Positions 1 through 49,591 of a stretch of 64,000 bases of DNA are shown piece after piece. Both the position numbers and the translations under genes were made by a program. The DNA lies in NCBI RefSeq assembly GCF_019649055.1, contig NW_026570228.1, positions 1,798,001 through 1,862,000 of the forward strand, given 5' to 3'. Within the stretch, counting starts at the first letter, position 1. Each line of letters opens with the position of its first letter. This stretch comes from Paramacrobiotus metropolitanus (taxonomy: Eukaryota; Tardigrada; Eutardigrada; Parachela; Macrobiotidae). The notes beneath the pieces were generated by a model. That model saw only the letters and a list, made by a program, of their open reading frames with translations. It ran no database searches and was not told the DNA's origin.

Positions 1-1
1 G

Positions 2-13396: not shown

Positions 13397-16190
13397 TCAG
13401 TAAGGTGGACCTGAGTGGCATGGTTTACGGGAAAATATATGCACGCCGAGGATATTAAACGAGATGAGATCCAGCAGGTAGAAGAGCAGACCAATCACGA
13501 AAATAGCGCGGAAATTATTTTTGAGACGATCCCCCGTACAAGTCCGGTCAGTAGATGCGACCACCGCTGCAGGTTCTCTACAATACTGTACAGCATGTTC
13601 CAACAATAACTAAAACAATCAGCAATTCAAAGTGGCGACTGCCGAAATTATTGAAGAATTATGTACTAAATTCAATCATGAGATAGACTAACAGCAAACT
13701 TCCAAACAATAAACCCACTGAAAGAAATCGTTTTCTTCAAGTTTCTTATGGAAACATGGCGAAGAAAGCAGAAACATGGCGAAGAAAGCATTTTTACGGT
13801 ACACAACCAAATCCTACCTATCATGCAAGAAAGCGTACGTACGAAGTTTCAAATCACAACATAGACTTCGAAAGTTTTACGAAAAACGTATAATAATATG
13901 AACTAAATTAACATTAATAATTTTTATAATAAAAATTAACGGAAACCGATAAAGTAAAATCTGTACGTATCAAAATTAGCGCAAAACCCTTAATTAACGA
14001 AACCGTTTCAACCGTAATCGTATCTCGATAACATAATCAGCTGGTTCGCGAGGTGGCTCTTACTCAGTATAATTCTCAAACAGTTTCCGACCCGGAGATC
14101 CTTCCTGTGTGGTTTTGGAAAACGCAGAATCCCCCGCTTGCTCGACAGTCTGATTGGCGACATCGGAAAACATGGGTGACCCGGCACGATCGCGAGTGCG
14201 CTCGATAAATGATCGATTCGCCGACGCTACAATCACAAGAAACAGTCAGATCTGCATTTCGCTGTCACCAGATTCAAGGCAGTTAACTTACAGTCCAGAG
14301 AATTCAACTCGCACATGAGACTGGTTCGCTTCGAGCGACCACGATCGGCACTGACGTCTACAAAAAACAATCTGTATTATACCTGCATGAAGCGAGGGAT
14401 TTTGTAAAGAACCAGTCAAAACAATTACACCAACTCACACCGAAAACTACCAATAAAACAACTGCGTGCTATCAAGTGTGCAATTTTAACATAAATTTCG
14501 CATTTACAGCCATCACTGACTGTCAAATACAGAAAAGTCTGGGCAGTTGTTACCAGGTAATCAATAAAAACTTAGCAATGACACCAATATCTTTAAAATT
14601 TTGAATTAGTAAGTGCGCTCAGAACTATCGCAGTGCACAGATCTAACTAATACGCGTACCGCGTACGTAATTATTTTTCTGAAATTTGAAAACGAGCAAA
14701 CTGACTAATAATGTCGCAAACAGTAAAACCATATACTTCTATAGTGTTTAGCTTTAACACACCTTTCGGTGACATGGACGGATTGCGGTCGGCCAGGAGA
14801 CTGCGTAGATTCTCGTTGTCGTCGCGCAGCATGTGCAGCTCATCCAGCAGATCCGACGTGCAATGCGGAATCTCCACACGATCAGCGCGCGCCCGCAGCT
14901 CATTCAGTTCATCATCCTTACGCTGGATCTCACCGATCAAATGCTGCACCATACTCCGGCCACCAGGAGAAGAATATTTGGACTCATCACCCTAAAACAT
15001 CAAGAAAAACTGTAAGAACACCAATAAAAAACACTACACAAAATCTTCAACTTACGTCAATGACACGCGCACAAAATTATACATATCCAAAAGAAGGAAT
15101 AACATAAATTCTCTTAAAATATAAGAAAGCGTTCATGCTAAGGAAAATGCTGCGCATAAAAGCGTCAACACAAAATAAAGCTTGAGCTATCTGACCATGT
15201 AACGCAAAGGAAATTATATCTTCGAAAACCTGATTCATCAATAAAATTATTCTGCTGAAATAAAAAAAAAATATATGATGTTACGAGTATTACTGTAGCG
15301 ATACCACTTGCAATACTTTCTCGCTCACGGAAAAATGAAAGCTTAACATTTTCATTCAACTCGTGCGCAACAGATCAAAAGGCAGGCAAAAGTCAAAGGT
15401 CGCCAAATAAATTTTCAATAAAAATTTACCTCGTAACCTTCGGCATCCGACTCTCCGGTCTCAAATTCACTGGAATCCAACAGCGATGTCATGTGATGGC
15501 TGCGGTTTTCCCAGCGATCACGAAAAGCACGCAGCGCCTCTTCGGCTTTCTTTTTCTCATTACCGAGATGCTCCAGTTCGCGCTCCATTTCATCCAAGTG
15601 CAGTTTCAGGAACTTCCTCTCCTCTTTCCCGTCTTCCAACTGTTTCACGTACTGCTGGACTTCCGCCGCCCAATTCTTCTCCACTTCATCCACATACTAA
15701 ATAAATTAATGACTAAATTTAAAATCCAATAATTCATCTGTAGCTAGCTGCTAATTGTTACGGAAAAAATCCCAAAAAATGTTCGTTAATTTAAAAATAA
15801 TTCTTCCATAATGCATTATTTAATTCCAGAAGCTCAACTGCACTCCTACTAATTGTCGAAAATCACTGTTAAATTTAAATTTATTCTGCGCTCGAAAGCG
15901 AAATAATCTCAAGGTCAGAAAGTCACCTCGTCTCGATCTTGGCGTGCTTTGTACACATCCTGATGGATTTTCTCCACATCCACTTTGAGCTGAGTGTTCT
16001 CTTCTTTCAGTAAGCGAATGACATCGGCCTGTTTCTCGCTCATGTCTACCAGGATAGAGCAGTTCTCGCAGATTTTCTGCAACTGAACGTTGTCATGCAA
16101 CTCAGGATGATCCGACCAGAATTCCATGAAGAGTTTGTGGAAGGCATCGTACACATCCGCGGAAACCGTTTCCTCATCACCTGCTGGCAT
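13397..16190 (-). CDS. Coiled-coil protein with predicted C-terminal membrane anchor
   Basis: Six exons: 16190-15927, 15696-15430, 14991-14763, 14357-14292, 14226-14064, 13577-13397 (389 aa). The start is the first ATG, after an upstream in-frame stop. Residues ~45-250 are charged and heptad-like (LLKEENTQLKVDVEKI; LDEMERELEHLGNEKKKAEE; DLLDELHMLRDDNENLRSLL). A Ser/Arg-rich linker follows, then a hydrophobic stretch near the C-terminus (IFVIGLLFYLLDLISF), which suggests a tail-anchored membrane protein. I do not recognise the family. A second acceptor at 13609 fits the same phase but opens another frame that ends at 13495 without the hydrophobic segment. The first exon and its upstream DNA are duplicated at 30.8-32.5 kb, where they form the 5' end of a BTB-kelch gene. 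Confidence 0.72.
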
Positions 16191-17520
16191 GTTTAGGCAA
16201 GAACAAACAAAATCAGCACTGGATAAGCTTACAAAATAGAAAATTGATTTATGCACGACAGACACCGCACAGATGGAAGTAATCAATTAAAAAAGAAAAA
16301 ACGGAAGTCTGCAGAATCAACTCAAATCGAAATGCGCAGTTGCAGCAACTTAAGTTTTGCTGTTAAGCGTAAAGGCGGTAAAGCTTCCATTACTCTTCGC
16401 TAACCGACGCACTGACTATCAAAGACCCCGAAAGACAATTACTGGTAGCATTACACTATGAACAGTCGCAAATCAAAAGATTGTGATGGTTAACGAGAAA
16501 TCAAATCATCGAGGAAGTTGTGAAAAGAGAAGGGCGACGAAGGAAAACAAAAATGAAATGCCTTTCGTGAGGTTCTCGGTCTGATAAAGTCAAACAGAAG
16601 CAACAGACAAGCCAGGAACGACTGGCATACGCGGCTTTCTTACTACTGTTATCATAAGTACTCGTTCCACCATTTATGTGGCTGGCTAGCACTCTGCACG
16701 CTCCCCGTGGGTGGGGGCTGCTTCCGTTAGTGTATACGGAACCGTACTTACTTTACGCCTTTATACGGATTGATTTTCTTGAAATTAGATAGTTTCATGC
16801 GATCTGTCATTGCAATCAATGTACGATACGTGTAATAATTTGCTGTACAAAAGAAAACTAGTTTTCTCTAAAAGTAAAAGATCTTTACTGATCATGCAGT
16901 CTTAGCCGACAACGGAAATAGGCGACCTAATCACACTGAAGATTTCTTCTAAATTACCCGACTGCTGGTGCTAATCGTTTACGTGTATTAATTTTCTCAG
17001 TTATCGCTTATCATTACTAACTGGCTAAAAAAACGCTCAAAAATATTTTTATTTATATTTTTATTCATTTGCTGATGCATTCACATGTTTTACTTGTAAT
17101 CCTTTGATTCATTGAAATTTCAAGAGATTTTTTTGGAAAAATTTGTCAGCGAAATGTTCATACGCAAAAAATAAGTTTTCTTAATGAATGTATTATATTT
17201 TTTCTTCGCTAACAATAAGTGGACAGCTTCGACAGAGCTGCAATAAATCTGTTAATATATATGTATGTTTGTTCACATTAATACGGTACTCCTAGCATCG
17301 CCGGCCCAAGAAAAGCCAAACGGTTTTGACAAATTTTTATTTCTAGTAAAAGAAATAAAGATCCAAAAACCAAACATGTACAATGCACATTCGCCCATAC
17401 AAGAAAAAATAACAAACAAAACCATTCACCATGCCGATACAGATCCAACGAAAAACATCTGACCGCAAAATTCCTTAACACACATTCTTTACCGACAATA
17501 ATGTACACACGGGATGGTAC
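15985..17520. repeat. Segmental duplication, copy 1 (partner 30800-32500)
   Basis: Three aligned patches appear in the same order and orientation in both places. The first is the coiled-coil first exon (15985-16190 vs 30800-31010). The second is 5'UTR and promoter (16225-16300 vs 31045-31110, and the GC-rich box at 16690-16730 vs 31218-31260). The third is a strongly similar block at 17278-17520 vs 32240-32500, which lies just past the end of the NHL gene in copy 2. Similarity is clear by eye (long exact runs such as TTTATTTCTAGTAAAA) but broken by many small indels, so the event is not very recent. Confidence 0.8.
16191..17277 (-). promoter_or_regulatory. 5'UTR and probable promoter region of the coiled-coil gene
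   Basis: There is no coding pattern upstream of the ATG at 16190. The stretch to about 16740 has a recognisable counterpart upstream of the chimeric BTB-kelch gene. This includes a GC-rich segment (CCCGTGGGTGGGGGCTGCTTCC at 16705-16726) set in AT-rich surroundings, which is a plausible core promoter. No TATA box was chosen with confidence. Confidence 0.4.
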
Positions 17521-18039
17521 GGAAGATTGCCAGTGTTAACCATATGTTGGGTTAGCTAAAAACATTCATGTACTTTGACATAATTGGGATTATGTTGTAT
17601 GACTTTACTGTGCGTTTGTACGTGTATTCCCTGTTGCACTAGCGATGACGTATGATCCGTGTTCTTATCGGTAGCCTCCGATCAGAAGCTGCGCTTCGTC
17701 GTCGGCTAGTATTCAGTAGTTACGGTGTGACTGAGTTGGAGTGAACATCAATATAAGATTAAAGTGAGTAACATCATTGTGGTCCTGTTGGTGTTTGAGT
17801 TGTGGTGACCTTCGTTTAGGGAAAGCAGTAGTGTGTACCTAGGCGGAAGTTACTGTGTGGTATTCCTGTAGTGTGGTAGTGAGTGTGGTGAGAGTGTGGT
17901 TGTGTAGCACCTGTTGTCTACGGAAGTGGGCAACAGAATCAACACCAATCTCCAGAGTTCCTTCTCTGCTGACTGCGGTCAGGTTGGTCGTAGTACACGC
18001 GGTGCGTGTATTATGTCAACTTTCATTCATGTACTGTAC

Positions 18040-18189: not shown

Positions 18190-18478
18190 ATTAATATATT
18201 AACGGGGAGGTAATCGAGCGAGTGACCGCCCACCGCACACTGGGCGCTGCTATCCCGGCCATCCAGGCGCTGGCCCACAACGACAGCACCCAGGAAGCGC
18301 TATATAAAGAGTATCGAGCATAAGAGCATATGTACTTGTAATTCGTATAAGAGCATCGCCATGACGCATTTCGTGCTGGCTTATCTGCACATGTGGGAGC
18401 AGTGGCCACTCTGGATAAGGAGAAACAGGGAGAGTTCTACGAAGTAGCGTCGGCAATCGATGTCAATCTGGCACATTA
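18190..18478 (+). pseudogene. Unidentified coding relic
   Basis: A GC-rich island in AT-rich DNA. One frame reads as coding for 38 codons (TAHRTLGAAIPAIQAL, then a stop). After a short AT-rich break, a second coding-like piece (ATLDKEKQGEFYEVASAI) follows in another frame and ends at a stop near 18478. It could be two decayed exons or one exon broken by an indel. I do not recognise the protein and saw no intact copy in the window. Confidence 0.45.
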
Positions 18479-20286
18479 AGCAGCATTACCTCCTGGAAAG
18501 CGATAACCAACATAGTCAACCAAAATAATAACATTTTTTATACGCTTTTTAAATAGTATTTTTTTAATTTAATATCTTTTTAAATAATACCCTTTTTTTG
18601 CAAATTTGCTGGTCTTTTCAAAGAAAAAATATCCTGCATTACTACCGAATACAAAGAACGTCCGTTTGAAAACAGCACTGAAATAAAGAATCATAAAAAA
18701 AGATCTTATATGCCACCAGTTTTTACCGTAGTGCATATGAAGGAGACTTTATACGCCTTACGCGGCTATTCATGTGCACTACGTTTTAATATCCTTTTTT
18801 ATTGTTTTTACGGCATTTCCATGCTAAATCACTGCAAAAAATTTGATTTAATCTAATTTAACAGACAAATGGTGTGGGGCAAATGGCCAGGCTCAGCTCG
18901 CTTAAGCGTAGTGCGAAAGGTCACTTTCTAGTCTCTACAGTCAGCAGCAACTGAAAATTTGGATGCAAGTGCTAAAGACAAAATGCCAGACACACATCTT
19001 ATAATTATGGTCTCTTCGCAAAATGAAACAACAAAAGTAGGTCATCTTCTGCTAAAGATGACAGGGAATAGGCAGAGTGCAGACCGTCCAAGAACCGAGC
19101 AGGCTAATCATTGCCGGTAATTAGGGAAACTTCCACGGGCGCTTACAAAAAAGAGGTCACACTCAACAGTTGAATTCTACCTCGATCCGAGAAAACTCCA
19201 ACGGTCTGTTATAACTAAGTGTCTCGCGGAATGAAAAGATTGGCCGTTTCTCTGGCTCCAACTTTAATATCATTTGAGTATATATGATACAGAGTAACAG
19301 AGTAGATCAGTTTATTACATTATTTTTTAATAGTGTGAATATCTTTCAAGAAAAGGAAGGTTGTATTTCTTGCTTCCAGTAACATTCCTCTCTTTGCAGT
19401 TTGCATACAATTTTGGCATTACTAATATCCTGTTACTGGTTTTATTGTAATCCTTTGGCTGTGGTACTCGAGTGCTTTTTCACCCGGTACAGTACATGGT
19501 ACCCAACTACTACCCATGGTACCAAATTCGTGTACAGCACGAAAACTTTCACTTTCGCGCATTCCTAAACACTTTTTCTCTTTGTTTCATGACATTCTGC
19601 AGTCAGATGATTCGTATTGTATATATACTTATACATAGGCGGAAAAACCGCTCGTGCGCGCACGAACACTTTTTACGCCTATGTATATAAATCATTTGAC
19701 TACAGAATGTCATAAAAAGAAAGCGAAAAAGTGTTTGGGAGTGCGCGAAAGTGAAAGTTTTCGTGCATCCACACGAATTTAGTAGCATGTACCGGGCCAC
19801 TTCCCTTCAGAAAACGATCCCATCTATCTTGCATTTCTCGCACGAATTCGCACCACCGATCTCTCTCAGAGGCAACTTGGTTTCCAAGTACGAGCCACAA
19901 CGAGAACGTGTGATATTTTTCATTGTACAGTGGAAGCGGAACAACATGATTACGTTCACGATCGTTATTGAGTAGAATTTATATTTATTCGGCGATTTAT
20001 ACGTATATTTTTGATATTATGGCAATGCCAATTTACATAATACATAGTACATACATAATACTTACATAATTTAATGTGTTACTCTAATTCCTGTAGTTGA
20101 CCTTTGAGCTGCGTGTGTTGCTCTGACTTATCGCGCGGGCTTGCACTTTTTGGTAACTTTGATGACTGTTGTTGATTAATGATACACTGTTTACTTTAGT
20201 TTCTTCACTTGACAAGAAATCGGCAGTTTTCTCTTAACAGGAGCATGAACCAATTGATGTTGTACAGTTGTTTTGTTTAGGCTGCC
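18479..20286. other. Gene-poor spacer with a long inverted repeat
   Basis: AT-rich sequence with no coding pattern. It holds the long inverted repeat at 19483-19797 and, at its right end, the likely 5'UTR of the F-box gene. A pyrimidine-rich acceptor (TTTGTTTAG) lies 6 bases before the ATG at 20287. Confidence 0.55.
19483..19797. repeat. Long imperfect inverted repeat (fold-back or MITE-like)
   Basis: The left arm from ~19523 and the right arm to ~19780 are near-complementary. Both contain AAATTCGTGT, GCACGAAAACTTTCACTTTCGCGCA, AAACACTTTTTC, ATGACATTCTG and ACATAGGCG. The arms meet at CTCGTGCGCGCACGAAC around 19652. An outer pair CCCGGTAC / GTACCGGG extends the ends to about 19483 and 19797. 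Arms are about 130 bp with scattered mismatches and indels. No coding sequence is inside. I could not settle a target-site duplication. Confidence 0.7.
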
Positions 20287-27050: not shown

Positions 27051-27279
27051 TGGAGCAATAAATTACTGGTAAAGCACCGTACAGTTCATTCCCCATCGCC
27101 ACCACTCATGCATTTTTTGAAAGGTCGAATGGCTCAGGACAGTGCAGCTGGATCCACTCATGTACTCCATGACGGAAATTTCATTTTTCATCTTACCAGA
27201 AGCCGTGGAATCTTATTTAAATCTAATTTGGCAAAATATAAAAAATTTCTGAAAACATCGGCGAAACCTCCGTAGCCGT

Positions 27280-27900
27280 AACGAAACGTTATGCAATTGC
27301 ATACATATTTTGTGCTGACCTTTCAACCTCCAGCCTGATCATGAGAGACAGTACGGTACTGTTAATGAGCTGTTCAGCGTCCTGCAGCGGCAGCCGGCTT
27401 GCGTCGTAGTCGTTAATCCGTAAGAGAATGTCACCGCGATGTAGTATTCCTTCGGAGGGCGATTGCATAAACACCTACACACATATTACCGCATAATATA
27501 CGGTAATATGTGTCTAGGTAACTATGGATGGAAGATCCTATATTGGCATACACTGTATGCAGATAGCATCTTCCATCCATAGTTCCCATCGGCACACCAC
27601 ACTGCGTAGTGCGTACTGTACAAGTACAGTTATGCACAGTTACAGTTATGCCGTTATACACTACCACGTATTCTGCTTATATGCTAATGCTGCTGCTGCC
27701 ACACGCGAGACGGCAAACTGTAATTATTTTTAGCTCTCGCCCGTTTCACAATCTCCGCGCTATATAGCCTCCAAAAGGGATAAAAGTGAAAATGTCAGAA
27801 TGGCGGATAAAATATTGCCTGGCTTAATGATATCGTCCATGGGCGCGCAACGGACGCGCGGTATGAAGTCTGAACTATCTTTTAAAAAGCGGCAACCAAG
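27280..27900 (-). pseudogene. Inverted duplicate of Zasp exon 2 and its upstream intron
   Basis: Read on the minus strand, this matches 2690-3150 of Zasp: CATGGACGATATCATTAAGC, TTTTATCC(C/T)TTT(T)GGAGGCT, GCAGCAGCAGCATTA, ATGGATGGAAGAT, and then the PDZ exon (VFMQSPSEGILHRGDILLRI). The exon frame stays open but has a 6-bp insertion (LSLMIRLEV vs LSLRLEV) and a few substitutions. No first PDZ exon or ZM exons are nearby, so it is a fragment. The intron part has grown hairpins at ~27488-27516 and ~27521-27587 that the parent lacks. Confidence 0.8.
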
Positions 27901-28612
27901 AATCTCAGCTTACTATTCCCAGGAATGTGTCAAGTAGAGGTAAATGTGAATAAATATACGATGACTTATGCGTTAGTATTCGTTTGCGCACTTATGCATA
28001 ACCAAAAATGAAAGGCTAAGGTCTACTGTACTGTAACGATTGTTTTGCTATACAGTTAATAAAAATGCGAATATATACTGCTGCTTGATCTGTGTATATT
28101 TGTAAATGCGGATTCACTACGATATACCCTACTTCAAGGAAACTCTCACAATATGCGTAACGTGATATGATTCGTATCATAGTACTTACTGCGCCATAAG
28201 AGTATTTATTTATCTAGGTAACATGGGAATCCAGAAAATTCTGAAGATAACTAGTACGATTATGCGCCCAAGGGTGAGAGTACAGAAGGAGCAACCTTAC
28301 ACCAATTCCATAAAACCGCAGTTCTACATCCAACATTCAAGCAAACTAATACTATACATATAAAAGGTACAAGTAAAGAACTGCATAAGCTGAAAATATA
28401 ATTTAAACAGGAAATACACGACACAAAAAGACACGCTTACGCATAGTGGGCTCGAAAGATATTCTACGATCAGCCAAATGTACCCATATATCGTCGTACT
28501 CACGGCTACACAGTAGATGCCAGTGGAAATGTTTAAAGAGAGAAAATTAACCGATAACATACTAATCTGCCAACCCGATGACGCAAGGAACACACGGAAA
28601 ATTCACTAGCCA
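27901..28612. other. Spacer downstream of the chimeric BTB-kelch gene
   Basis: AT-rich sequence with no coding pattern. It should contain the 3'UTR of the gene ending at 28613. I saw nothing else that I can name. Confidence 0.5.
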
Positions 28613-30974
28613 TCAATCATCCCAAATCACAGGCCAAGTGGTCTCATAATCATTGCAAAGACTGCGCTGTCTCACGTATTCAGATGTGCGGTAAGTGTGA
28701 TCTTGCATGACACATGCGTATTCGTGGTGGAACTCAGCAAATCCACTGCCCATTGTAGGAGTCTGCAGCGCCAGACAGACTGTCTTCTGCGCGTAATCAC
28801 CGCCAACCAATTCCGCCTGCAGTTCCTCTGACATCGGCACTTTCTCCCGTGTCCATTCGTTCGTGCCCTCATCGTACTTCTCAAAAGATAAAGCCGGTTT
28901 TTTCCGATTCGCACTATCTTGGATCGTGCCTCCATACACCCAAATCTTCCCGTCCTTGATGAAGACGCAGTGGTCATAACGCGCATCGTTCAGCTTTCCA
29001 ATGGACTCCGGTCGAGAATGGACGCGTGCTAACGAAATACGGTAGCAGGAATTAACCGCTACATTCCTGCCATCTTCGTGATATGCTCCTTGTACGGCTC
29101 CACCAATGAGGTATAAATGTCCTTTAAAGATAATAACTCCACAGCGATACGGGTTCTTCACTTTCTCTGTCCAGCCGGTATGCTTCGTCCATTTGTTGCT
29201 GCGAACATCGTACATTTCCACCACAGTCTCCTGACGCTTAGAGTTTTGTTCACCGAAGGAACCAGATGTAATACACCAAATTTTTCCATCCGGAAGAGGA
29301 CAAGTCTCCATCGAGTGGCTGCAAACCGAAACTTAATTTAAAGCACAGAGCCAATGGCTTTCTATCAAATCTCTAAAATTACCCAACTATTAATAATTAA
29401 TATTATGCCACACATTCTTACATAAAATAGCGATGGTACACAGCATCTCCGCCCCGGAGAAACGGCTGCGAGACATCTTCGGCCAGCTGGGTAATAGGGC
29501 CGAACTGTCCGGCAGAAAAATCACAATAGTACCACGTTAAGGGATCGTGTGTCGCACCGAAGACATCGTTGCCCACCGCCACCACCGAGATGCAGTTATT
29601 AAAAGCAGGTTCTTTCATCAACGTACGCCAACTGCCAGTTAAACAGTCAATCGCGATTATTTCCCCTTCTCGCAGACTTCCTTTAGTGCCGACAATAAGC
29701 TCCCGGCCAACGGCCACTGCGAAACCATCGGGTCTGATCTTGGGCGACAGCTCCGTCAGTGTATTTTGCACTAGGGTGTCCATCTTGGTCAGTTCGTTGC
29801 GGTAGAAATCGTATCTGAGCAACTGATGGGAATAGCCTTCGCGCATGTGGTAGAAGATAGCTTCTTTCGGAATGGCACGCTTGGGCAACACTCCACCGCG
29901 CAGCTGGCCGCAGTTTCGATCTGCCAAAATTTGGGATAACAATTCGTGTAAATCTCCCGTCGTACACGCTCTCAGAGCATCGATGTCTACCGAATCCCAC
30001 ACAATGCACGATTTCAACAGCTGATCCAAGTGTGGCATGCGTAAGGGAGCAGCCATGCACCAGCGCACAACAGCCTGCAAATTTCAAACATGTAACTAAC
30101 AATACTTAATAAACCATTTTACTATACAATTAAAATTAAGAAATATAAGATCTATGAAGCATAAATTACTTATCATTAATTAATCATTACAGAAATTGGG
30201 CTGCTTCAAAATTCGATTTAAATTTGACTGCTATGCTTAGGGTCTACAAATCGCACCAACCTGATAAACTGATGTTTCGGATTGAGGAAAGTAGCCATTG
30301 TCGGTTAGCAGGTCAATAACCTCCTCTGCACTGCACTTCAGAAAAGTCTCAGAATCGGCGAACGCGGAGCGACGCGGAAGTTTTTGAAGAATCCCTTGGA
30401 ATGCCAGTCTTTCCAAATCCACGAGTCTATCGCGACGAGCCAGACGCCACAGACGCCACACGTTCTCCTGCCGTATCATAATTTTCCGCAAAATTTTCTC
30501 TGCTGTAATCAAGGCTTCTTCCATTTGCAGATATTTGGCGGCGATCCACATTCTGATGGCGTCATCGCGTTTGAAAGACAGTTTTAAATCTGAATTACCC
30601 AGACTTTTAACCAGTGAAGCCAGCATGTCACGGTGGACATTCTCGGGCAAACCAACGAGAAGATCAACGCTCGCAGGGCCGCCATCTGGAGAAGTTAGAC
30701 GTTCGGCGAAGAATCCCGACTTCTCGACTAGAGTATCTTTATTAACTACCACAACTTCCTTATCGCCGATTCGAACTTCGATCTTTGCAGGACCCTCACC
30801 CACTTTCAGCTGACTGTTCTCTTCTTTCAGTGTCCGGATGACATCGGACTGCTTTTCGCTCGTTTCTACCAGGATGGAGCAATTCTCCCAGATCTTCAGC
30901 AACTGAGCATTGCCCTGCAACTCAGGATGGTCGGTGTACAAACCTTCGAAGAGCTCCTTGATGTCCGACGGCAT
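28613..30974 (-). CDS. Chimeric coiled-coil/BTB-BACK-kelch protein
   Basis: Three exons: 30974-30261, 30074-29422, 29318-28613 (690 aa, phases agree). Residues 1-~58 copy the first exon of the coiled-coil gene (DHPEL, NCSILVE.SEKQ.DVIR.LKEEN.QLKV). The sequence then passes, with no intron, into a BTB domain (~62-160; KIEVRIGDKEVVVVNKDTLVEK, FFAERL, ASVDLLV). BACK follows (~165-330), then kelch blades in exons 2-3 (LYLIGG, KIWVYGG). BTB-kelch proteins typically recruit targets to CUL3. The parental ATG is not kept: that site reads VPPGD, with GTG for ATG. The first ATG is at 30974 (MPSDIKELFEGL). The chimeric N-terminus could add a dimerisation surface (inference). No breaks were seen. Confidence 0.85.
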
Positions 30975-32500
30975 CGTTTCCTTGTCGCCAGGGGGCACAA
31001 ATTGCACAACGGAAGGGGGCAATAAATCACCACTTGAAAACCGTGCAAGGTAAATCACTAATTTATGCACAACAGACACTGCACAGATCCAAGTAATCAA
31101 TTTAAAAAGTTAAATGCAAAACGGAAAGCAGAGGGCTCTAAACTCCAGAGATGGAAGAGAAAATCAGTAGCGAGTCGCGACTAGCACACGCAGCTTTTCA
31201 CTGTTGTCCTACTCGACTTACGTGGCCTGCACGCCGCCCGTAGGTGGGCGCTGCTTCAACTAGCGAACTAGCGACTGGCGTATTATTGACGGGCTGGTTG
31301 ACGGTTGTATACGTATTACGTAATTCAACCTAACTACAGAGTATAACCGTATATTTTCAATTGCTAATTTGTAATTATTTAATTCTGTTTGTGTTACAAA
31401 GTTCGCAGTGTGACTGGCTTGTGCTAATAAAGAGAATTGCTAATATTTTTTTTAGACTTCATGGTGTAACAGAAATAAATTTATCGCGAATCGTTCATAC
31501 TCTACAAGTGTTGGTCGCGCTAGCGCGCTCCCAGTTGAGTCTAGGTATGGAATTTGGAATAAAAATTTGGAATGTTGCAATATGTTGCTTATTTTATTGA
31601 ATTATTTCGTATAATACTATTTGACTGTTGTAATTACTGTAATTAAAGTTCTTTGTCAATTTTTATTTGAAACTTTTTCCACACGTAGAAATGCTGAAAT
31701 ATGGAGGTATTGGCCCCGCGCAGCGGGGCGAGCTCTGGAAACATTTTAAAATTTTTAGAAATTTTTAAATATGGAATTCCAAATTTTTAAGGTATTTCAA
31801 TAAATATTTTCAAACAGCGCTTCGCAAATATAATATTCCGAAATGTTAAGAAATATTTGAAGATCCTGTATATGGGTGTGATTCCTTCACGGTTAATGAA
31901 GTCCGGTACTTATAGACATCATTAATACGGTGAATAATAATTATTATCATCGGTTATTATAATCTTCGTGTTGCTAAGTACTCTGAATTCACGACGCTTA
32001 ATTTAAAAAATAAAAATTTTCTGCTATTGTTGACCTTCCATAACTTTCAAACATTCGACAATATCACATATCTAAAGAAAAAATTTCGAAATTTAGTACT
32101 AAGTTTTCTTGACTGACAAATTTTGTTTTTTTTGCTAAGTGGACAAGCACAAAGTAGGAGTAGTAACGAAGCCATCCATATGTGCTTGTTGACTTAAAAT
32201 GAATGAGTACTGTACTCAACTTTTAGGGCCGTAGAGTGACGGCGTAGACCCTAGCATCGCACCACTGAACGCCGGGCCAAGAGAACCCAAACGTGTTTGA
32301 CAAAATTTTATTTCTAGTAAAACCCATAAAGATACAAAAAACATACACGTATGCACATTCGCCAAAACAAGAAAAATAACAAACAAAAACCATTCACCAT
32401 GCCTAAAGATCCGAAGAAAAAAACAACAGATTTGACCGCGAAATTCGTTAACACACATTCTTCACCGACAATATACACAAGGGATGGTATGGAAGATGGC
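30800..32500. repeat. Segmental duplication, copy 2 (partner 15985-17520)
   Basis: This carries the first-exon segment of the coiled-coil gene, its 5'UTR and promoter, and the 3' flank of the NHL gene, in the same order as copy 1. The inner breakpoint is inside codons after QLKV (near 30800), where similarity to 15985 ends and BTB sequence begins. Confidence 0.8.
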
Positions 32501-32841
32501 CACTCGCAGCGGCCACTCGCCAGCGGCCACTCGCATTAATACCGACACACATGGACAATCCAACCCAAACCAAAGTTGACAAAAAAATAATAAACCCAAT
32601 TAAACACAAGATCTAAACGATAAACGCCGACACACTACACAAATTCACTGAGCACACGAAAAACAATCGCCGAATTAAATTCTGAGGGAGGGGGGCAAAA
32701 AAGAAAAGGCTAAACCATTTGATTAAAAAATTGCAAAACTATAAAGGTATGAAAACACTTTGGTCGTAGAAAGAACAAAACATCCTCACACAGTAACACA
32801 GCGCGCGCCATCACGTCCCCCATGCGCACACACGTCGACCT
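30975..32841. promoter_or_regulatory. Captured promoter region of the chimeric gene, and NHL 3' flank
   Basis: 30975-31280 resembles the coiled-coil gene's upstream DNA, including the GC-rich box GCCGCCCGTAGGTGGGCGCTGC near 31230. Further left-to-right, 31360-32240 is AT-rich and shows no gene. It holds a short GC hairpin GCCCCGCGCAGCGGGGC near 31713. 32240-32500 is the block shared with 17278-17520. A small tandem array of GCGGCCACTCGC occurs at 32500-32535. Confidence 0.45.
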
Positions 32842-35800
32842 TCACGGAACGGTGGCGTCCTTGTCGGCAATCTGATACTGAAAGTCCGGTGCGTCCACAT
32901 TCAAACCGGCATGCACATTACGCACGTATCCGCTACTGCCCTCCTGGATACGCATCACCAGCACCATGTGATCCTTCTTTACCGCCGTGATCAGCTCCCC
33001 ATCCTGATTCATCACAATGCCACAACTGTGGCTCACCTATTCGATAAATCAGCAGAATTATACTAACAGAGTGACAGTTAAATTCAAATCCTAGCTCGAA
33101 CTATACAGAAATCGCAGACCATTAACAGTGTTCCATAAAATAAAGAAAACAATCATAAGACGCAAATTAACTGATTTGGTCAAAATACAGACGATACAAA
33201 AAAATTTAAACTACTTAATTCAAAGGTTACCTTCGCTTCTTTAAACAATATCTTATTGCGACAGTTGTCTTTTACATCTGCTTAGTAATTTCAGTGTTCA
33301 TTGTGAGTCTTAATTTCATCACTATTTGAAGCCTTGAAGGTACTGACGAAGTCGTAGCATAAATATTATTTCTGTCATTAACTACAAGTAAGCATGTAAA
33401 AGAAATCCTTCTCAGCTGCGGCAAAATGTTGGAAAAAATTATCTCTAAATATTACGAGTACAAAATTTGCTGACAAAAAAGGTAAACATTGCTGACAAAC
33501 AAAGAACGGTGTTAACTCGCGTACCTTCATATCCAATAACGCATGGTAGCCAATCAAATCGCCGGTATCGGCGCTCCACACCGACACATGAAAGCGATTG
33601 AGATCCGTATCGGCCACCAGCAGATTTCCATTGGGCGTCAGACCCAATCCGCGCGGAAAGCGGACAATGCCCTCCTGATTGGAAGCGCCCAGGCGCTGCA
33701 GCAGATTGCCCCAGGTGTTGAACACACAGACATAATGTCCCCGGAAGTCACTGATGTAAAACTTGTGATCAATGACCACGACATCCGACGGCTCCACCAT
33801 GACGCTCTCCAGCGAGAACCAGTGGTGAACATGGCCGTCTTCTTTCAGAATGACACACGCCGGTGGTTGCACTTCCACGACGACAATCTGCAAAAACAGA
33901 TATTAACAAAGTTTGCAAACTGTTTTATGTAACCAACGATATACAGCGAAATTTCATAAACCGACAAGTAATCTTAAAATGTCGGAAAGGGCGTAATTTC
34001 AGACGAAATTTACCAAAGTTTGCATTTATTTTCTAGGTATAACATTTGCACCATTTTCTGCTGCGAAAGACGAATGCTTTCCAATAATTTTCTTGACTTT
34101 TTTCTTAACTTAACTGCATAGGAATCATGTAAGGCACGTGCGTACTCATTAACTCAAAATAGAAATATTAATTATATCGTTTCCGCACCTGATCATTGAA
34201 GACGGTCAAACCAGCCGTCGTTGTGTTCAAAGCCATTCGCAGACTGTGCAGATTGCCCAGCGTGTTGATGTATGCACCAGTCCGTTCAAAGATCTGAATG
34301 CGCGAGCAGCCATTGACCCGGTCACTCACCACGATGTGCTCCGTCTTGGGGATGAAAGCCACCTTGCGCGGATGCCACAATTGTCCCTTCTTGACACCGG
34401 AAATACCCCATAAAAATTTGAAATTCCCCTTCTTGTCGAAGATCTGGATGCGGTGGCTCAGTGTATCTATAATTGTCACATAAAGAAGTTAAGTGTTCAC
34501 CGATTTACGTCAACGAAAAACGCAGATGTATAAATCAAAATCTATTCTATCCGTGTCTACATATGTCGTACGATAGCTAACTTTAAAGAACGAATTAATG
34601 AGATTACCTGCTACAATAATTTCGTCATTCAATCCAAGACACAAGCCCTGCGGCATATTGAATTGTCCAGCCGATTGCCCCGCTTCGCCAAATGTGCTCC
34701 TGTCAACACATTACTGTAGTTTTTATCAAAGTCAGACATCAAATTCAGACAAATTGGACCACAAGTCAAACGAAAATGAAGCAAGCAAACTCGATGGAAT
34801 TCTTACACAACAGCCAAATCCTGCTGACGGTGTGGCACGGTGGCTGCCTGCGCGTCCTGCGCATTCAGAGTTTCAAAAAAGTCCACACTGGGCGACGGTT
34901 TGGACAGTGGTCCATTGTGGCGCAGATGGTGCATGTTGTTCATCTGGCCGCCGCGCATCCGTCCGCGGCCATTACGATGCGGCGAATGCAGGTGGTGGTT
35001 GCCATGACGTGGATTGTGATCGCCGGTGGCCTGGTGGTCAGCATACGGGTTGACCGGCTGACGATTGCCGCCTTCATTGTAATCGTGACCGGAAGGCGCA
35101 TCTATAAATAACAATGCCTTATAAAACTAAAACTACCTCAATTTTACACGGAACTTTACAATAAGTAGGAAAATTGCTGACACGAAAAAATAAGACACTG
35201 CCAGTCGAAAATATTCAACATGATAATTACACGTAAATTAAAACATGAAAGTTTTAGCAGCGGTAATTTGTTATCTAGGTGCGCAGCAAACTGAACATCA
35301 GTAAAATAAAATAATTCTGAATTTTTACTGCCTATTGAATTGAGTGCCGGCTAATTTCGCAGACCCGTACAGGATGAAATTTTGATGATTAGTATGATAA
35401 GGAAATTTGAGAGATTCACACTGTAGCTGGTCAACGATGCCTTATGCCGAGTCTGCTTTTATCACAACCGCAATTTAAACTTCAGTTCAAAGTTTATTTC
35501 GTCTGGCTTACATGGATTGCGCTGGTGCTGCTCGCGCCCATCGCGATGATTCAGACGTCCATTAATGAAAACCGGCGACGGGGAGCGCCATGCCGCACAC
35601 GGATTCCGTGCATGGCCACTGTTGCCCGATGAATCCAGTGGCAGCGAGAAGTTGCGGGAACGACCATGCCCGTGGTGGCTCGGTGGCGACGCATTGGAAC
35701 GGGGCATGCTCAGTGGCTTGCGCGGCGACTGTCCTGCCGGTCGAGGAGGAGCGTCGGGACGCTCGCGTAAAACACCGCTGACTGCAACAAAGAAATGACG

Positions 35801-40587: not shown

Positions 40588-43500
40588 ATGCCAGAAACGG
40601 TGACGATTCCCTCCGAATACCAGGCCGAAGAAAAAGAACCCCCATTTTTTGACCTTTTTGAGAAACCCCGAATCCCATCCCTTCTGAACCCCGGGACAAT
40701 TCGCTGTACCAACGACCCTCCCTGCAATAATTGCAACCACTGCCAACTTGAGCAACATGCTGCCAGCTTCATTGCATGTATGCAGCGGATCAGCGGTACA
40801 CGGCAGCATGAAATCCTCATGTGCTTCGTGGACGTCATGCCCATCAAGACCGCGGTGTGGACGCTCGATCTCCTGCGCCTGCATGTTGACACGATGACCC
40901 CAGGAATCGACAGTATTGCGCGCGAGCTGCAGCAGCGCACGCTGCGCCAATCAGGAGCCACGGTGACTGATGCCCCGCCCCTTGCGGATGTCCACCGCTT
41001 AATCACATCTGTCGAGCAGACCGTTGACTGGTTTACACGGTGCGATATTCTAAATCAACAGTTATTTATTATGCGTTGCTTGCTTATTCAAGATTATTCC
41101 CAATTATTGTGGTTTTATAAGGAACTAAAGGCGGCGGTCGTCGAGCGGCTTCCTCCTGAACCCGAAAAACCAGCGATCTCGGCCAAAGGAAAGACGCCAA
41201 TTCCCAGTAAGAGTAAAGCGGAGACACCGGTGGCAGTGGTAGCGACGCCATGGCTGAAGGAACCGGTGAAACCGGATGTCGTATTCGGGAATCCCAATCC
41301 GAGTTACAAAGGTCACATTTGTCTGGATTTGGAAGGAGCGGGGTTTGTTACACTGGAAGAACGGAATGTCTTCTGCTCGAAATTCGAGGAGTTTCGCTTG
41401 TGGAAATCAGAAGGAAGTATTCCGATAGCGGCGGTTTGTCCAAACTCTGGACTGTGGGGAGTTTATTCAAAAATACACAGAAACATCTCCATTTATGATG
41501 GTGAGAAATAGAAGTACTGACCAAGTGTTCTGTATACATTTATAATTACTTATTTATTTTTGTCTGGTCAAATACATTTATTATTTATGACCCAAGAAAA
41601 CGCTTTCAGCAGGTTCGAGTGCAAGTATATATGCACTACAAATAATTTTTAAAATAGACTTAACAGAAGCCTAGATTCTGTTAAATCATCGCGCGTACCA
41701 AATACAGATATACTATGTAATTGTTAATGGTTTTTTCAATTGAAATAAAATCGCGTAAATTTGCTTTACTGCGCCACAAAAAGGAGATCGAATCCGTTTG
41801 GGCGCCAGTTCAATACGCTTTTGCTGGTTTGTGTACGCGCTCCTTTAATAAAATTCATTTGCTGTTATTTTTTGTACTGTTACGTTGTACAACATGCGTA
41901 AAGGTCAGTAGTATCTGAAAATTTGGACCGGCAGGATGCAGACTCGTGGAATGAATGTCGTAATTTATAAAGTAGTGGCAAGCGCCACATGAAACCGTTG
42001 ATGCTATACGCTGGTTAATTTTAGTGGCAACAAAGCAGATTGTTGAGGCCATTTCAGTGAAACCGGAAACCACTCCTGTCTTAAGGATGGCCATTTCCAG
42101 GAACGCCTCGTACATCTTTGTTCAAGCGTCCCATTTTTGCGTCCATATTTACCAAAAAACCCTGCCTAAATTTGTCTTTCTTAAACAAATATCTTTGGAC
42201 CCAGAAAATGGCATTAACTTGCTGGACACAACGCCGAAGGACCAGCTAGTACTATCGTCGCGTAGTGCCAGCATTTACATTTACCAACACGAAAACCAAT
42301 TTACTGAGCCGAGTCGGATTTACACATTAGGTACACCCATTTAAATGAAAATATTTTATTTTTTATGAAACCATGTCCTTTTATCATTTTTGACCGTCGT
42401 GTTTGATAACTGCACTTATGCGTATAATAAAAACGAACGCTTCGCACAAGATCTTTTTGCCAATCTGAGCATACTGCACAGGATTAGGCACTCTGTATAC
42501 TATATGCAGCAACTACAATGTACAGTACCTACAATAGCTTGCAGCTCTCACAATACAGTAACATAATAATTATGACAAGCTGTGCAATTTTTGTAAAACA
42601 AAGCAACAACCTTTATAAGTTTTCACTATGTATTTATTGCATAATTTAAGGTTTAAATGCGTTTATAGCTATTATGTTGATATCTCCCTTTCTTAGAGTT
42701 GTTTGGTGTGAACTACTTACTATAACTAATTAATATTTATATGTCCCTGTTTGCAGGTGGGAACATCTGGTCTCACTGCAGTACTCCCATCTTCTCCCTT
42801 TTCTTCCCCACTTCCTCCAGTAGCGATATTTTTGCCGCATCTCTCGGCAGCGGGTCCGTCGTGCTGGTTAATACCCAAACCGGTTGTATTCGTAAACTGC
42901 TGACCGCCCACTCGCTCCATCCGGGTCCGGTGCGGTATCTGCACTGCGACACATATTTCTGCATAGGATGCGTGCACAACGTGGCGTACATCTGGGAGAT
43001 TAACGGATCCCAATCAGCAGCACGCCATACTTTGCCGCATCCCGTGGAGATTAGCGCATCGAATGCACTGTACCAGCGCCTTGTCACCGGCTGCCGGGAT
43101 CACAGCATTCGGGTGTGGTCAGTCGTGACCGGTCAACTTTTGCGGGTGATGGTGACCTTTGCGGATGTGGCCCATCCGCTTTTAAAACTGGATATTATCG
43201 GGGAAAGGATCATCGTTGGCACCATGTTGACGGGATTGTATGTTGTTTGGTTCGAAGAAGTGGAGTGGCAAGAAAGTAATCCATTGATATTTGCTTGTAA
43301 GTGAAGATTTAACGCTGCGTTGCCGGTAACATATGAGTATTAAGCGAGTTACTTCTTTTCTACACCAAATGATCATCGATCGAGCAGTTAACAGCGTTTT
43401 GTTTTGAATAAGTTAACACGTTTTGTTAACAAGTTAACACAAGTTTTTGTTTGTTTTAACTAGATGTCTGTTCGGTAAAGGTCAAGAATGTCTTGTGAAG

Positions 43501-44068
43501 CGATTCAAGTAAAATATATTTCGTCAAACTTTCTGCAGGTGAAAATGAAAGTTCAGACCGATGTATTCGCATAGAGCAAAAGAAGATTTTAGACCAGCTG
43601 ACGCCCAGTAAGCCGGCAGAAACCGATTCAAAATGGCGACAGCGACTGGTTCGTCTCCTAAACCATCACGCAGTTCTAATTGCAAGTCAGCCTGGAAACG
43701 CCACAACGACGCATAATTTACCGCTGCAATCACATCCTATACCGTACACTAAGCCTCCTTTAATGGAAACATTCACCGAAGAAGCCGCTCGTGAAATCGG
43801 GAAGAAAGGTCAAGCTGAGGAGTTTGCAGCGCAGTTGAGCATCAGAAAACAGCAGTCGGCGAAAAAGAGTGCAATGGTTAATCAAAATGCCGGTGTCTTA
43901 TCGGAGACTACAAGAGTTCAGTTTAGCGCCGCTGGAGAACGGAAAGCGGAATTGCTGAGCTATCCAAATCAGGCAGAGGAGCTGAATACTGCGGTTGTTG
44001 CAGCCTTAAATGCTTCTAACAAGGCAACCGATCAGAACAAGAAAAATAAGACGAAAGCCACGCATTAA
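40588..44068 (+). CDS. FBXW10: FBXW10-like WD-repeat protein lacking a visible F-box
   Basis: Four exons: 40588-41500, 42025-42330, 42757-43296, 43539-44068 (762 aa, phases agree). The N-terminus has a Cys cluster CNNCNHC at residues 46-52 and then VEQTVDWFTRCDILNQQLF. These recall the N-terminal region of vertebrate FBXW10 (a Cys pair and a ...WF.. helical segment). Near residue 255, LEERNVFCSKF matches the FBXW10 segment just before its WD repeats. WD-type blades follow (GCVHNVAYIWEI; TGCRDHSIRVWSVVTGQLLRVM; VGTMLTGLYVVW). I found no F-box between the N-terminal domain and the propeller. The C-terminal tail is Ala/Lys/Gln-rich, with EEAAREIGKKGQAEEFAAQL. Exon 4 has a decayed copy at 48148-49075. 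The assignment is from remembered motifs, and function is unknown to me. Confidence 0.7.
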
Positions 44069-44500
44069 CTTGTTGTTCGTCAGCTGCTTTTCAGTATAAT
44101 TATTGCAACAAAATAGAGTTTAATGACGCAAGATCGTCCCAAACATCAAATACCGAGAGCAGCATTTTTGCAAGCATTTTCAATAGCACAAATCATCACC
44201 GTAAGCACCCAACAACGTGCATCAAAAAGCGGAGCTATAATTTTTGCAAGAACCATAAAGCGCATCGTACTCAACAAATTGTAAAGAAACAACATTGTCA
44301 CAAGCCTGAAAAAGCAAGAAAAAAAACATTTTCCCATGTATCAAAAAGCTTGGGGATCATTTTTGTACGCAACAAACAACATCAACAAAAAAGCACGGCT
44401 TGCATCAGCTTCGTAAGAAATAAAAAACGAAAATAACACTTTTGTACGCATTAAAAAGCGAAGAAAACAATATTTTTGCAAGCGCCAAAAAGCGGACGAA
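44069..44500. repeat. Degenerate short tandem repeat downstream of BTB copy A
   Basis: A loose repeat with a period of about 40-60 bp contains (C)ATCAAAAAGCG, then CAATTTTTGCAAG. Examples are near 44220, 44340, 44385, 44450 and 44490. A similar array lies at 49216-49560 beside BTB copy B. It sits in the 3' flank of these minus-strand genes. I read no protein in it. Confidence 0.55.
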
Positions 44501-47500
44501 TCAAATATCCAATAGACCGAAGCTGTGTCCGCCGTTCGCCTTCCACAACGCGACATGCTCTTTGCGCAGCATCAGATCCGCCAGTTCCACGATCCGATCT
44601 CCATTGACCCGGTGCTGTCCATCCTTACCGATATATCCATACGTGGCGTAGGCTTTCAATGAGCGCACATACACCAGCGGGCCGTCTTGCAAGAAGTCCT
44701 TCGCACGAATCACCTGGTCGGCCGTGGCGGTGTCCGTCTCGCCATTTTTGCACCACGTAAACGTCACATGATGGGGATGGCACGCGGTCACGCGCGCTGG
44801 CTGCCACCATGGTCCCATTTTGCCGGGCGCATGCACAAACACTGCCTCTCCCGTGTGATACATTAGCCATTCCTTCTGCTCTTCGCTCGTGATACGGCGC
44901 TCGGTGGGGAACGCCAGTGCCGGCTTCACCGTGGCATTCTTGAACATGAACAAACTCAGCAGCTCCGCTTCCGTCAACAGTCCGCTCTGTAGCACAGCAA
45001 TCACAAAATAGTACCGTAGACGGCAAGTATATGCATCCAGTCTTAGAGATATATGAGCATCCTTAATCCTTAATGTCATTCGTGACCTTAGATCTCAAAT
45101 GAACCGCGCCATTCAGAGGGACATGGCATCAGCCTACCTTGCCCGGACCGTCCGCCAATTTGGTGTTACTTAACAGCGGAAATCGCACATGGAACAATGC
45201 GTCTCCCAGCATCTGACGGCGATTGGCCGCCGAGGCGTCCACGGCATTACGAGCGCAGGCCGCCGTTGCCCATCTAACGTAAGTAACAACAGCAAACGGC
45301 ATTTATTTCAATAGTGTGTCGACACTTATCAGCAAATCTTTATGTTAAGTTTTGGCAAAGTGGCAAACCCTTCTATATTTCTTAGCGGATGATGAAAGAC
45401 ACAAATTATTTAGCACCGGGTTCCCACGTTCGTAGATGTTTCGCACACTGTATTGGCTAATCGATAGTTGTCGCATCTTTTTAATTTTATCCTGCTACGC
45501 GCACCTGCACAGATTATCCAAATCTCGTATTTCACCGACTATTGTATGCCGGCACGCATAATTAGCCAAAAACGGTGCGATAGCTATCGATACTTTAAAA
45601 TTACCATATTTTCAGCAGTTTACAGTTGTTTTATGTGTTTGTTATCACCGATTAATTTGCTCTACAGTCTACATGTTTGAACAACATTTGCAGTTGTTTT
45701 ACATGCAAGCAAATTACCCAGTGAACACAAACAACACACAGAGGTTCTTCCGTATATCGATTACAGTACTTTTACTACATGGATCGCCGATTGTATTCAG
45801 ATTTGTAGAGGTACATTATGATTTGATAAAGATTCGGTTTACTTCTTTTTAACGCAACAGAGCTGGAAGAAAATACCGGTTTTTGCAACTGTTTCAAAGT
45901 TTTTATAAATTGAATAGTACTGGTGAGTGTTGGTTATCAAGTGCATCGTTGTATGCTGAACTGACAATGTGAGGAGGAACATTGAAAACTTTACATAAAC
46001 TACCAGAAATACCTATATATCAACATCATTTTGTAATGACGTATCTTTTAGAAAATTTGAAAACGTGGATTATCGATGTGGCATGTGTTTACAGTAGTAA
46101 AAGATTTGTGTACGAAGATGAAAATTTATACCGTTCAACAGCCAAGTAAATCATGTGCTCCTCCGCCAACAGCGTACTGCGCTCCAGAATGCGCTGCAAT
46201 GTTTCCTGTGTGATGTCGTTGAACGGGTCCGACTGCAGAATGACCATACCGTGCTGATCCACCAAAGTCAGGCATTTCTCCACGATGTTGTCAGCATGCC
46301 AGAACACAGCCTGCAGATAAAGATAAACCCAGATCACTCATTTCCGCTACTACGGTGCTTACCATCGCTCTTTTTAAATCTTAATAATTAACAGATAAGA
46401 ACTCTTGTTGTTAAATTTCCATGATAACTAGTTTCCCTGCCTGTTTCAAAGTGGCCAGACAGTTATCGGCATTCAACTGGCTGCTGATGAAACTGCTGCA
46501 CAACTGCACCAGCTCCGGTAAGTCGTACTTGCCGGCGCAGTTCATCGTGGCGAACGCGTTATGGACGTTAAGCTGGCCCGCTGGCACTCCACCGGTGTAC
46601 GTAAAACTGCAACATTTTGATAATTAAACAGGAGCTCACCCCATTTGTAGGGAAATACGTGTTGGAAAACAGTAATAGAAATGCAGATCGTCTGCTATAT
46701 ATGGGATTTACGCCCACCACGGTGCAGTGTATTACAAATGCCACGCTGCTACTCCAGACATATACCAGACTTGACTATAAGGACTATTTTTAGCTTATTC
46801 ATGAACTGTTAATTTCCTAGAGAAATCCACCGCGTAGAGAAAAACTTGTTGTATCTATTTACCAATTAAGTCGAAAACAGTAGAGCAAGGATGTAACTTG
46901 TAACATTCGTAGTTTTCAAAATAAGAATTCAAATTTTAATTCTTGAATCAATCGAAGTATTCGGTTCGGTTAACTAAGTAACCGACACTATTTTAACTAA
47001 ATTTAATTTTAAGAAATACTAATAATCAAAAACATTCAATTATAAAAATTTATCCTAAAATAACGTAAGAATTGTTTAAGTAAATAAGCGTAATAAACCT
47101 TGGAACCATCCTATTCTACCTGAGCATGTGGCAAAGGCGTCCGGGTGAATATCGGGAATATCGACGACACCTTGACATTTTTCCGGCTGGTCGCCGTAAA
47201 GCATCGTACGGAACACCGGGCTGCGAATTCCCAGGACGAACCTGCACACCGATTAACAGTTATTAACACCGTCCACGGAAAATACGGTGCCGAACAGCCT
47301 CGGCTCTGACTGCAGTGCTGAGGCACCGAAATAAATACATGTACGAGCAGCGATATCTTACTTATGCGCGGTGAAGTCCCGTACACGTTGTCCAGACTGG
47401 CGTCCAACGGTAAACCGCACATCACTGAGGTCTCCGCTGGCGAACGCCTGCTCCAGTAAACCAGCAAGCCGATTGCGGCCTGTTGGCGCTCCCGTCCCAT

Positions 47501-47539
47501 GGTTCCGCCCAGTCTTCGATGAACTTACTTTGGCGACAT
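44501..47539 (-). pseudogene. BTB-BACK protein, tandem copy A, with frameshifts
   Basis: Six exons parallel to copy B: ~47539-47343, 47241-47120, 46606-46441, 46310-46132, 45273-45138, 44986-44501. Domain content is the same as B: BTB (DVRFTVGRQSG, SPVFRTMLYGD, IPDIHPDAFA), BACK (LATLKQAVFWHADNIV, LFHVRFPLLSN) and the unusual C-terminal region (TGEAVFVHAPGKMGPWWQPA). Compared with B, the ATG at 47537-47539 is out of frame by one base and hits a stop after four codons. Exon 2 also lacks one base near its end (GCCACATGCTCAG vs GCCAACATGTTAAG), which spoils the join to exon 3. The exon 3 donor is GC (CAG|GCAGGG). Exons 3-6 are still open. It is a recent pseudogene, unless the indels are sequence errors or a different 5' exon is used. 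Confidence 0.75.
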
Positions 47540-48147
47540 GGCTATGTGACGGATTTCGTCGACAGTTAGATAAATTAATGTAGAATGATGAAATGCCACG
47601 AAAGTACAAATTAATTTTGTGCAAAGGCGGACAGAGAGATGCTCTTTCGAACTGCAAAACGGAAAGAATAAAACAGAAGTTCGAGGCAGAGCAGAACTGG
47701 CAAGAGACGTGGAAACTGGAAACACTCGATAACCGAAAAACATGATGAAATCGAGCGTTACAGCGGCGCGATTAGCCAAAATGGGCGCGAAATGGACGCG
47801 CGTTCACGTAGATGTCACGCTGCAGCGCTTGGTATTAGCGCTCGTATGTAGTTGCAAGTCGCAGCGTATACTCACTAATACTGGGTCCGAAGTATCAGAA
47901 GTCAGAACGAACGAAGTAATTACAAATGTATGCTTAGAACGTTTTATTTTTACAATGCGTAATCGAGAATATAAGTTTTTGATTAAATCAATAAGTTAAA
48001 GGATTTCAGCTCTCTTTACTGCGGTTGTTGCTGGATATGCATGGTTGTTGAAGTTTTACGCTTTAATTTCCTCTTTATTTGTTCGGTAAAGGTCAAGAAT
48101 GTATTGTGAAGCGATTCGAGTGAAATGTTTTGTTACGCGCTCCACAG
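47540..48147. promoter_or_regulatory. 5' flank of BTB copy A and junction of tandem units
   Basis: 47740-47870 matches 52580-52680 upstream of BTB copy B and so is likely promoter or 5'UTR. The unit 1/unit 2 junction lies between ~47880 and ~48060. No gene was seen otherwise. Confidence 0.5.
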
Positions 48148-49075: not shown

Positions 49076-49081
49076 AAAAGC

Positions 49082-49591
49082 CGGCCACACGAGTCACTTC
49101 ACCAGCTGCCATTCGCTATGTAACTGCAAACTGGATTCGTAATTTCGTACTCGTACTATGCAATGAAAAACTGAATTCCGAATAAGATCTCAAGTAACGA
49201 TGCTTCACATCGTAGTCAGGATTTGAAAGTCAAAAGAGCATAAGTGAGGTTCAGTCTTCGCAAACATGAAAAAGCAAAGTAAGTGTTTACGTACGCATCA
49301 AATAGTGAAAGCAGCATCTTTGCAAACATCAAAAAGCGTACAAATTTGTAAATATCAAGCAGCGTTAACAAAAACAAACGTATCAGCTTCGTAAACATCA
49401 AAAAGCGCAGGAATAATTTGCGAAAGCAATCACACTGTGAAGAAAAAAGTTGTCGGGTGCAATGCGGTGCATCAAAAAGTAAAGATAACAATAGTTTCGC
49501 ATGCACGCATTAAAAAGCGAAGACAACAACAATTTTCGCGTGCATAAAAAGGCGAATGGGTTCAAAGTCCGATCCGGACAAAGAACGTGGC
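49082..49591. repeat. Degenerate short tandem repeat downstream of BTB copy B
   Basis: Same type as the array at 44069-44500. It has repeated ACATCAAAAAGCG / GCATTAAAAAGCGAAG words spaced roughly 40-60 bp apart between ~49260 and 49560. It lies in the 3' flank of BTB copy B. Confidence 0.55.

Follow-up and report, generated by a model that had tools for sequence, protein, structure and literature searches.

An old in-exon fusion joins the N-terminus of a coiled-coil gene to a BTB-kelch body in Paramacrobiotus metropolitanus

The genome of Paramacrobiotus metropolitanus harbours a fusion gene composed of two parts of different ancestry within one open frame, an N-terminal segment shared with the first exon of a neighbouring coiled-coil (CC) gene and a BTB-kelch body. 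The fusion is real, old and apparently selected, it arose by local duplication, and this kind of event is already known. We lean towards the reading that an old duplication and fusion put the BTB-kelch body under the promoter of the CC gene, and that the body left the CUL3 system either at that time or afterwards. The fusion gene is located at 30974-28613 on the minus strand of the window, i.e. the whole stretch of 64,000 nucleotides that was analysed, and its three exons encode 690 aa without an internal stop. The parts of the gene and of its neighbours are the following.

30974-30261, 30074-29422, 29318-28613, minus strand: exons of the fusion gene, open throughout, with GT-AG junctions
30801..30974, minus strand: 58 codons of the fusion gene homologous to CC exon 1 (identity over the last 45 residues, dN/dS, Met positions)
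30261..30800, minus strand: BTB and start of BACK, in the same exon as the CC-derived codons (family alignment, Pfam rows); CUL3-contact residues replaced at about 30704-30678
29422..30074, minus strand: exon 2 of the fusion gene, BACK and linker (gene model; tblastn matches to relatives)
28613..29318, minus strand: exon 3 of the fusion gene, kelch repeats and stop codon (Pfam Kelch_6, Kelch_1)
30975..31226, minus strand: remaining putative core promoter and 5'UTR, partly common with the CC gene (alignments)
31227..31257, minus strand: GC-rich box of the putative promoter of the fusion gene (matches 16694-16724; the surrounding stretch beats 300 of 300 shuffles)
32270..32502, minus strand: distal part of the 3'UTR, including AATAAA, of the NHL-repeat gene that precedes the fusion (82.6% to 17299-17532; two copies in the assembly)
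32845..33036, minus strand: last coding exon of the NHL-repeat gene (genome and window searches)
33522..33878, minus strand: NHL-repeat exon (Pfam NHL E 5e-7)
15927..16190, minus strand: CC gene exon 1, 88 codons, the first 70 shared with the fusion (gene model, genome search, codon alignment)
13397..15696, minus strand: CC gene exons 2-6, single copy (gene model; self matches only)
16694..16724, minus strand: GC-rich box of the CC gene (31-bp match to 31227-31257)
17299..17532, minus strand: truncated copy of the NHL 3'UTR, located upstream of the CC gene (search for adjacent NHL coding sequence negative)

The two loci were compared by blastn of positions 27501-34000 against the 64-kb window. 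The fused part of exon 1 and the 5'UTR (30794-31114) match 15974-16300 over 333 columns with 70.9% identity (E 2e-48), and positions 32270-32502 match 17299-17532 over 242 columns with 82.6% identity (E 9e-55). When the two upstream regions were compared alone, the GC-rich boxes 31227-31257 and 16694-16724 aligned over 31 bp with 87% identity (E 7e-5). The stretches 31115-31330 and 16301-16790 reached a local score of 33.5, a value attained by 0 of 300 dinucleotide shuffles (maximum 15.0), and the control stretch 18301-18790 scored 9.0, with 266 of 300 shuffles as good. Pairwise alignment thus places the similarity of the upstream regions, proposed in the preliminary description, beyond chance. 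The spacers 31331-32269 and 16791-17298 do not resemble each other significantly (26 of 300 shuffles score as high), and above the 3'UTR block nothing is shared between the loci (112 of 300). The similarity is formed by ordered islands, found in the same order at both loci, rather than by one continuous block.

The non-coding flanks, namely the promoter and 3'UTR islands, were duplicated together with the coding part, and the body has kept its introns, as in its relatives; the shared flanking islands bear out the proposed origin by local duplication. As a genome query the promoter stretch matches itself only, and its match to the CC locus comes from the direct comparison. A dispersed repeat was rejected as the source of the similarity, with two matches for the exon region, two for the UTR block and one, itself, for the promoter stretch. 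An assembly error is not favoured, because the two copies differ by about 30%.

Residues 1-58 of the fusion protein align to residues 9-70 of CC exon 1 with one four-residue gap, and 34 of the last 45 residues of the fused segment are identical, so that blastn and protein alignment confirm the approximately 58 shared N-terminal residues first described. The two parts meet within exon 1, following QLKV (residue 58), in the linker just before the BTB domain. Gene model and alignments agree with the earlier placement of the fusion point within a single exon, with no intron there, and with a whole frame that is open over 690 codons and three exons. The ATG of the CC gene has a GTG (30998-30996) opposite it in the alignment, and the first ATG in frame after that starts at 30974, again in agreement with the replaced parental start and internal ATG of that description. 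After Met 1 the next Met is residue 117, inside the BTB domain; since there is no Met between the two, only the CC-derived start can yield a complete BTB-kelch protein. The fusion gene also possesses BACK (PF07707, E 1e-6, 29 bits against a cut-off of 20.9), Kelch_6 (E 3e-10) and Kelch_1 (E 2e-9), both kelch matches being above the cut-off. The N-terminus had been described as a helix, and here a coiled coil has no statistical support: heptad spacing is not significant in the fused segment (p 0.30) or in CC residues 37-70 (p 0.17), and is weakly significant in CC residues 37-88 (p 0.02). A single-sequence fold of the exon-1 segment gave a mean pLDDT of 47, too poor to use; at such low model confidence the added segment may be helical.

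The genome searched comprises 169,799,020 bases in 533 contigs. Against this assembly the CC exon-1 protein matched itself (E 1e-54), the fusion (E 1e-18) and one further place at chance level (E 0.69). No trace of CC exons 2-6 was found at the fusion locus, and a search for paralogues of the CC gene in the assembly returned self matches only. The best Pfam match of the CC protein, TMEM192 (E 0.006), is under the cut-off, and its PDB matches are chance-level from E 0.019. The modelled CC protein ends with a transmembrane-like stretch and a short tail ending in CHSGPPY (13397-13577, minus strand), which we take to resemble the proline-rich termini of nuclear-envelope KASH proteins.

The kelch body has at least 84 matches in the assembly, its own three exons included, with 70 of 235 candidates scored. 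Twenty stretches with BTB exons and upstream DNA were fetched, along with 16 gene stretches. Forty loci gave 20 distinct BTB exons, the rest being repeated sequences or stopping short of the motif; loci L012 and L014-L017 are outside this count. Since the CC segment is missing from the upstream frame of all 20 distinct relatives, the N-terminus was most likely gained by this one family member. Seventeen of the 20 relatives possess a lysine/arginine-rich (basic) tail just before the BTB domain, as judged by eye, and the three-exon plan is common to the fusion and the relatives wherever exons of the latter were found.

Trees were built from the 16 fetched stretches and the local kelch copies, with 15 to 19 rows each. 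The kelch body forms a long branch, and the trees of exon 2, exon 3 and exons 2+3 leave it alone; under midpoint rooting it falls outside all others in these three trees, as the longest branch. Only in the exon-1 tree is the fusion grouped with L039, and weakly so (83/76). L039 was rejected as a close relative located elsewhere, the pairing being confined to the exon-1 tree; with 70 of 235 candidates scored, a closer one could be missed. Two local kelch copies were also rejected as a close source of the body, with dS of 1.71 (395 codons) and 1.26 (113 codons) and no sister grouping. A literature search revealed no report of such a fusion or of kelch expansion in tardigrades, most subscription journals being outside its reach.

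The neighbouring kelch copies are broken. One of them is split and located upstream of the window, and the other is found at 27188-26335. The plus-strand copy (upstream of and at window positions 1-496) appears to be split by an insert (L038 4007-6523, minus strand), which carries an open THAP/P-element-type transposase frame (Pfam THAP, Tnp_P_element, TNP-like RNase H). Positions 27214-28012 (minus strand) and 2527-3225 (plus strand) form an inverted two-copy duplication with 74% identity overall and 82% over 360 bp, which includes a PDZ exon and the DNA before it (Pfam PDZ E 2e-5 together with the exon near 1695). About 26 bp separate the end of the 27.2-28.0 kb copy from the broken, 5'-truncated kelch copy 27188-26335; here too a kelch body adjoins an exon of another gene, which makes a second composite. 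The window also contains a tandem duplication of about 4.5 kb (43441-47834 and 48051-52665, blocks with 64-75% identity) and two self-inverted stretches, 19515-19789 (78%) and 56706-56807 (98%), possibly small inverted-repeat elements.

A Pfam BTB match is present in 12 of the 13 aligned family rows, and the fusion is the exception, with none up to E 1. Its BTB region aligns full-length with those of the relatives, 12 of 12 of which match Pfam BTB at E up to 1. KLHL3 in 4hxi is the best solved match of the family profile (E 1e-8), and 4hxi is the structure of KLHL3 with CUL3 described in PMC3616122. KLHL3 residues A77, M78, M83 and E85 align to A, M, F and E in the relatives, and residues E91, R92, D97, G98 and G99 of the fusion are opposite KLHL3 A77, M78, M83, S84 and E85. 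The phi-x-E motif is in place in 19 of the 20 distinct relatives (exception L013) and absent at the equivalent place in the fusion, where a phi-x-E-like FAE is found out of register at residues 89-91. According to the same source, A77E, M78V and E85A in KLHL3 each severely disrupt CUL3 binding (PMC3616122). Because the CUL3-contact residues are replaced in the fusion and KLHL3 mutants severely disrupt binding, we infer that the fused protein works without CUL3. On the best reading of the sequence, CUL3 docking would have been lost with the fusion or later.

Sixty-six fused codons were compared with CC exon 1, which gave dS 0.75, dN 0.23 and dN/dS 0.31 (bootstrap 0.13-0.69), both branches pooled. 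With a dS of 0.75 on the fused codons the gene is not young, and the word new in the preliminary description is dropped; by this measure the fusion event is old. Compared with 18 copies (16 fetched and two local), the kelch body shows dN/dS of 0.20-0.36 and dS of 1.24-2.08, the latter near saturation, and the fusion has kept the invariant columns of the family alignment. Both the fused codons and the body look constrained. The dS of the body exceeds the 0.75 of the fused codons, and the body was thus probably a separate lineage prior to the join. The 3'UTR block shows a divergence of about 0.2 per site (Jukes-Cantor by hand from 82.6%) against the synonymous 0.75 of the fused codons; being less diverged than synonymous sites it is constrained or converted, and is unusable for dating the event. 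The stranded 3'UTR copy 17299-17532 is better kept (82.6%) than the adjoining coding exon 1 (70.9%), and no gene was seen using it. Its folding is no better than that of shuffles (31 of 200 as good), no unusual folding of the UTR block was detected (z 0.25 and -1.00), and the block has no Rfam match at gathering thresholds within the window.

The 3'UTR block was found at two places in the assembly, the fusion locus and the CC locus. The assembly search revealed NHL coding exons beside the fusion only, plus two weaker relatives on contig C34. Because NHL coding exons continue from the 3'UTR only at the fusion locus, this locus is probably the ancestral address of the promoter, which would have stayed there, and the CC gene is probably a relocated copy. 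The truncated 3'UTR of a third gene is an unusual clue to the direction in which the event proceeded. The preliminary description had the promoter and first exon captured from the CC gene; promoter and exon are indeed shared, but the direction is not supported, the NHL 3'UTR being joined to coding exons on the fusion side.

Copying of the promoter and exon 1 from the CC locus, with insertion before a BTB-kelch gene as first described, is therefore an unlikely route, although the same DNA similarities fit it. The CC gene is a plausible owner of exon 1, heptad phase 5 being the best for residues 71-95, second for 40-70 and tied best for 56-70 (a weak pattern; 89-150 prefers another phase). However, the NHL 3'UTR runs into coding exons at the fusion locus only, and the whole NHL gene would have to be copied too and the original then lost to a point inside the UTR. 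Somewhat less credible is a reverse capture, in which the kelch gene next to the NHL gene owned the N-terminus from the start, and the promoter and 70 codons were acquired by a younger, composite CC gene. This is consistent with the truncated 3'UTR sitting at the CC locus, with a CC gene for which no paralogue, Pfam match above the cut-off or convincing PDB match was found, and with the outlying position of the kelch body under midpoint rooting. Nonetheless, 0 of 20 distinct relatives show such an N-terminus, and the CC exon carries its helical pattern on past codon 70, a weak point. That the fused frame exists in the DNA only, in a decaying pseudogene, as the unrecognised BTB domain and the broken neighbouring copies might suggest, is highly improbable in view of 690 open codons with GT-AG junctions over three exons, the dN/dS of both parts and the retained invariant columns.

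Under the preferred reading of an old duplication and fusion, the CC gene would originally have been the next gene downstream of the NHL-repeat gene, in the same orientation. A duplication whose start lay within the NHL 3'UTR would have produced a second CC copy about 15 kb further on, and the copy beside the NHL gene would have lost exons 2-6 by deletion or rearrangement. By the same deletion or rearrangement, codon 70 of CC exon 1 and the linker preceding the BTB domain of a BTB-kelch gene would have been brought together in one frame. This would have cost the kelch body its own promoter, its start codon and, judging by the relatives, a short basic tail, and its expression would since have depended on the promoter and start region of the CC gene. 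The predicted protein has kept BACK and kelch and seems subject to purifying selection, with a BTB that lacks CUL3-docking residues.

Most likely the fused protein acts without CUL3, as a kelch scaffold or competitor, and is produced at the sites where the CC gene is expressed. Given the non-significant heptad spacing of the fused segment, its pairing with the CC protein, which appears to be membrane-anchored, is a guess. It is doubtful that the swap of the N-terminus and the loss of CUL3 docking are linked, such that the protein, made from the CC promoter and paired with the CC protein via the shared segment, would be a ligase-free competitor shielding kelch targets from the expanded CUL3 adaptor family. 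If true, a degradation adaptor would have become an antagonist of its own family through gene fusion. The fusion is old enough to show what was kept (promoter, start region and kelch body) and what was lost (CUL3 docking), and the families of both parents survive, so that it can be compared with them. The case suggests that exit from the ubiquitin system is possible for a member of an expanded BTB-kelch family once its promoter and N-terminus have changed.

Similar to the KLHL family, of which KLHL3 (4hxi) is the nearest solved relative, the fusion would have the domain order BTB-BACK-kelch, with a putative BTB region in front; it differs in the replaced CUL3-contact residues and in the extra N-terminus from another gene. 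Jingwei is a chimeric gene that arose by retroposition. In jingwei-type chimeras, as in the fusion, a gene body joins the N-terminal coding part and the regulation of another gene, whereas the body of the fusion keeps its introns. To our knowledge, most known chimeric genes are young. According to work on Drosophila yakuba, which combines a population sample with RNA-seq, chimeric structures there result from tandem duplication and regulatory elements are shuffled (Rogers, Shao and Thornton 2017, PMC5460883). These chimeras share with the fusion a local duplication that creates a chimera and shuffles regulatory elements, whereas the present fusion is old (dS 0.75), is joined within an exon and is known from the DNA of one assembly.
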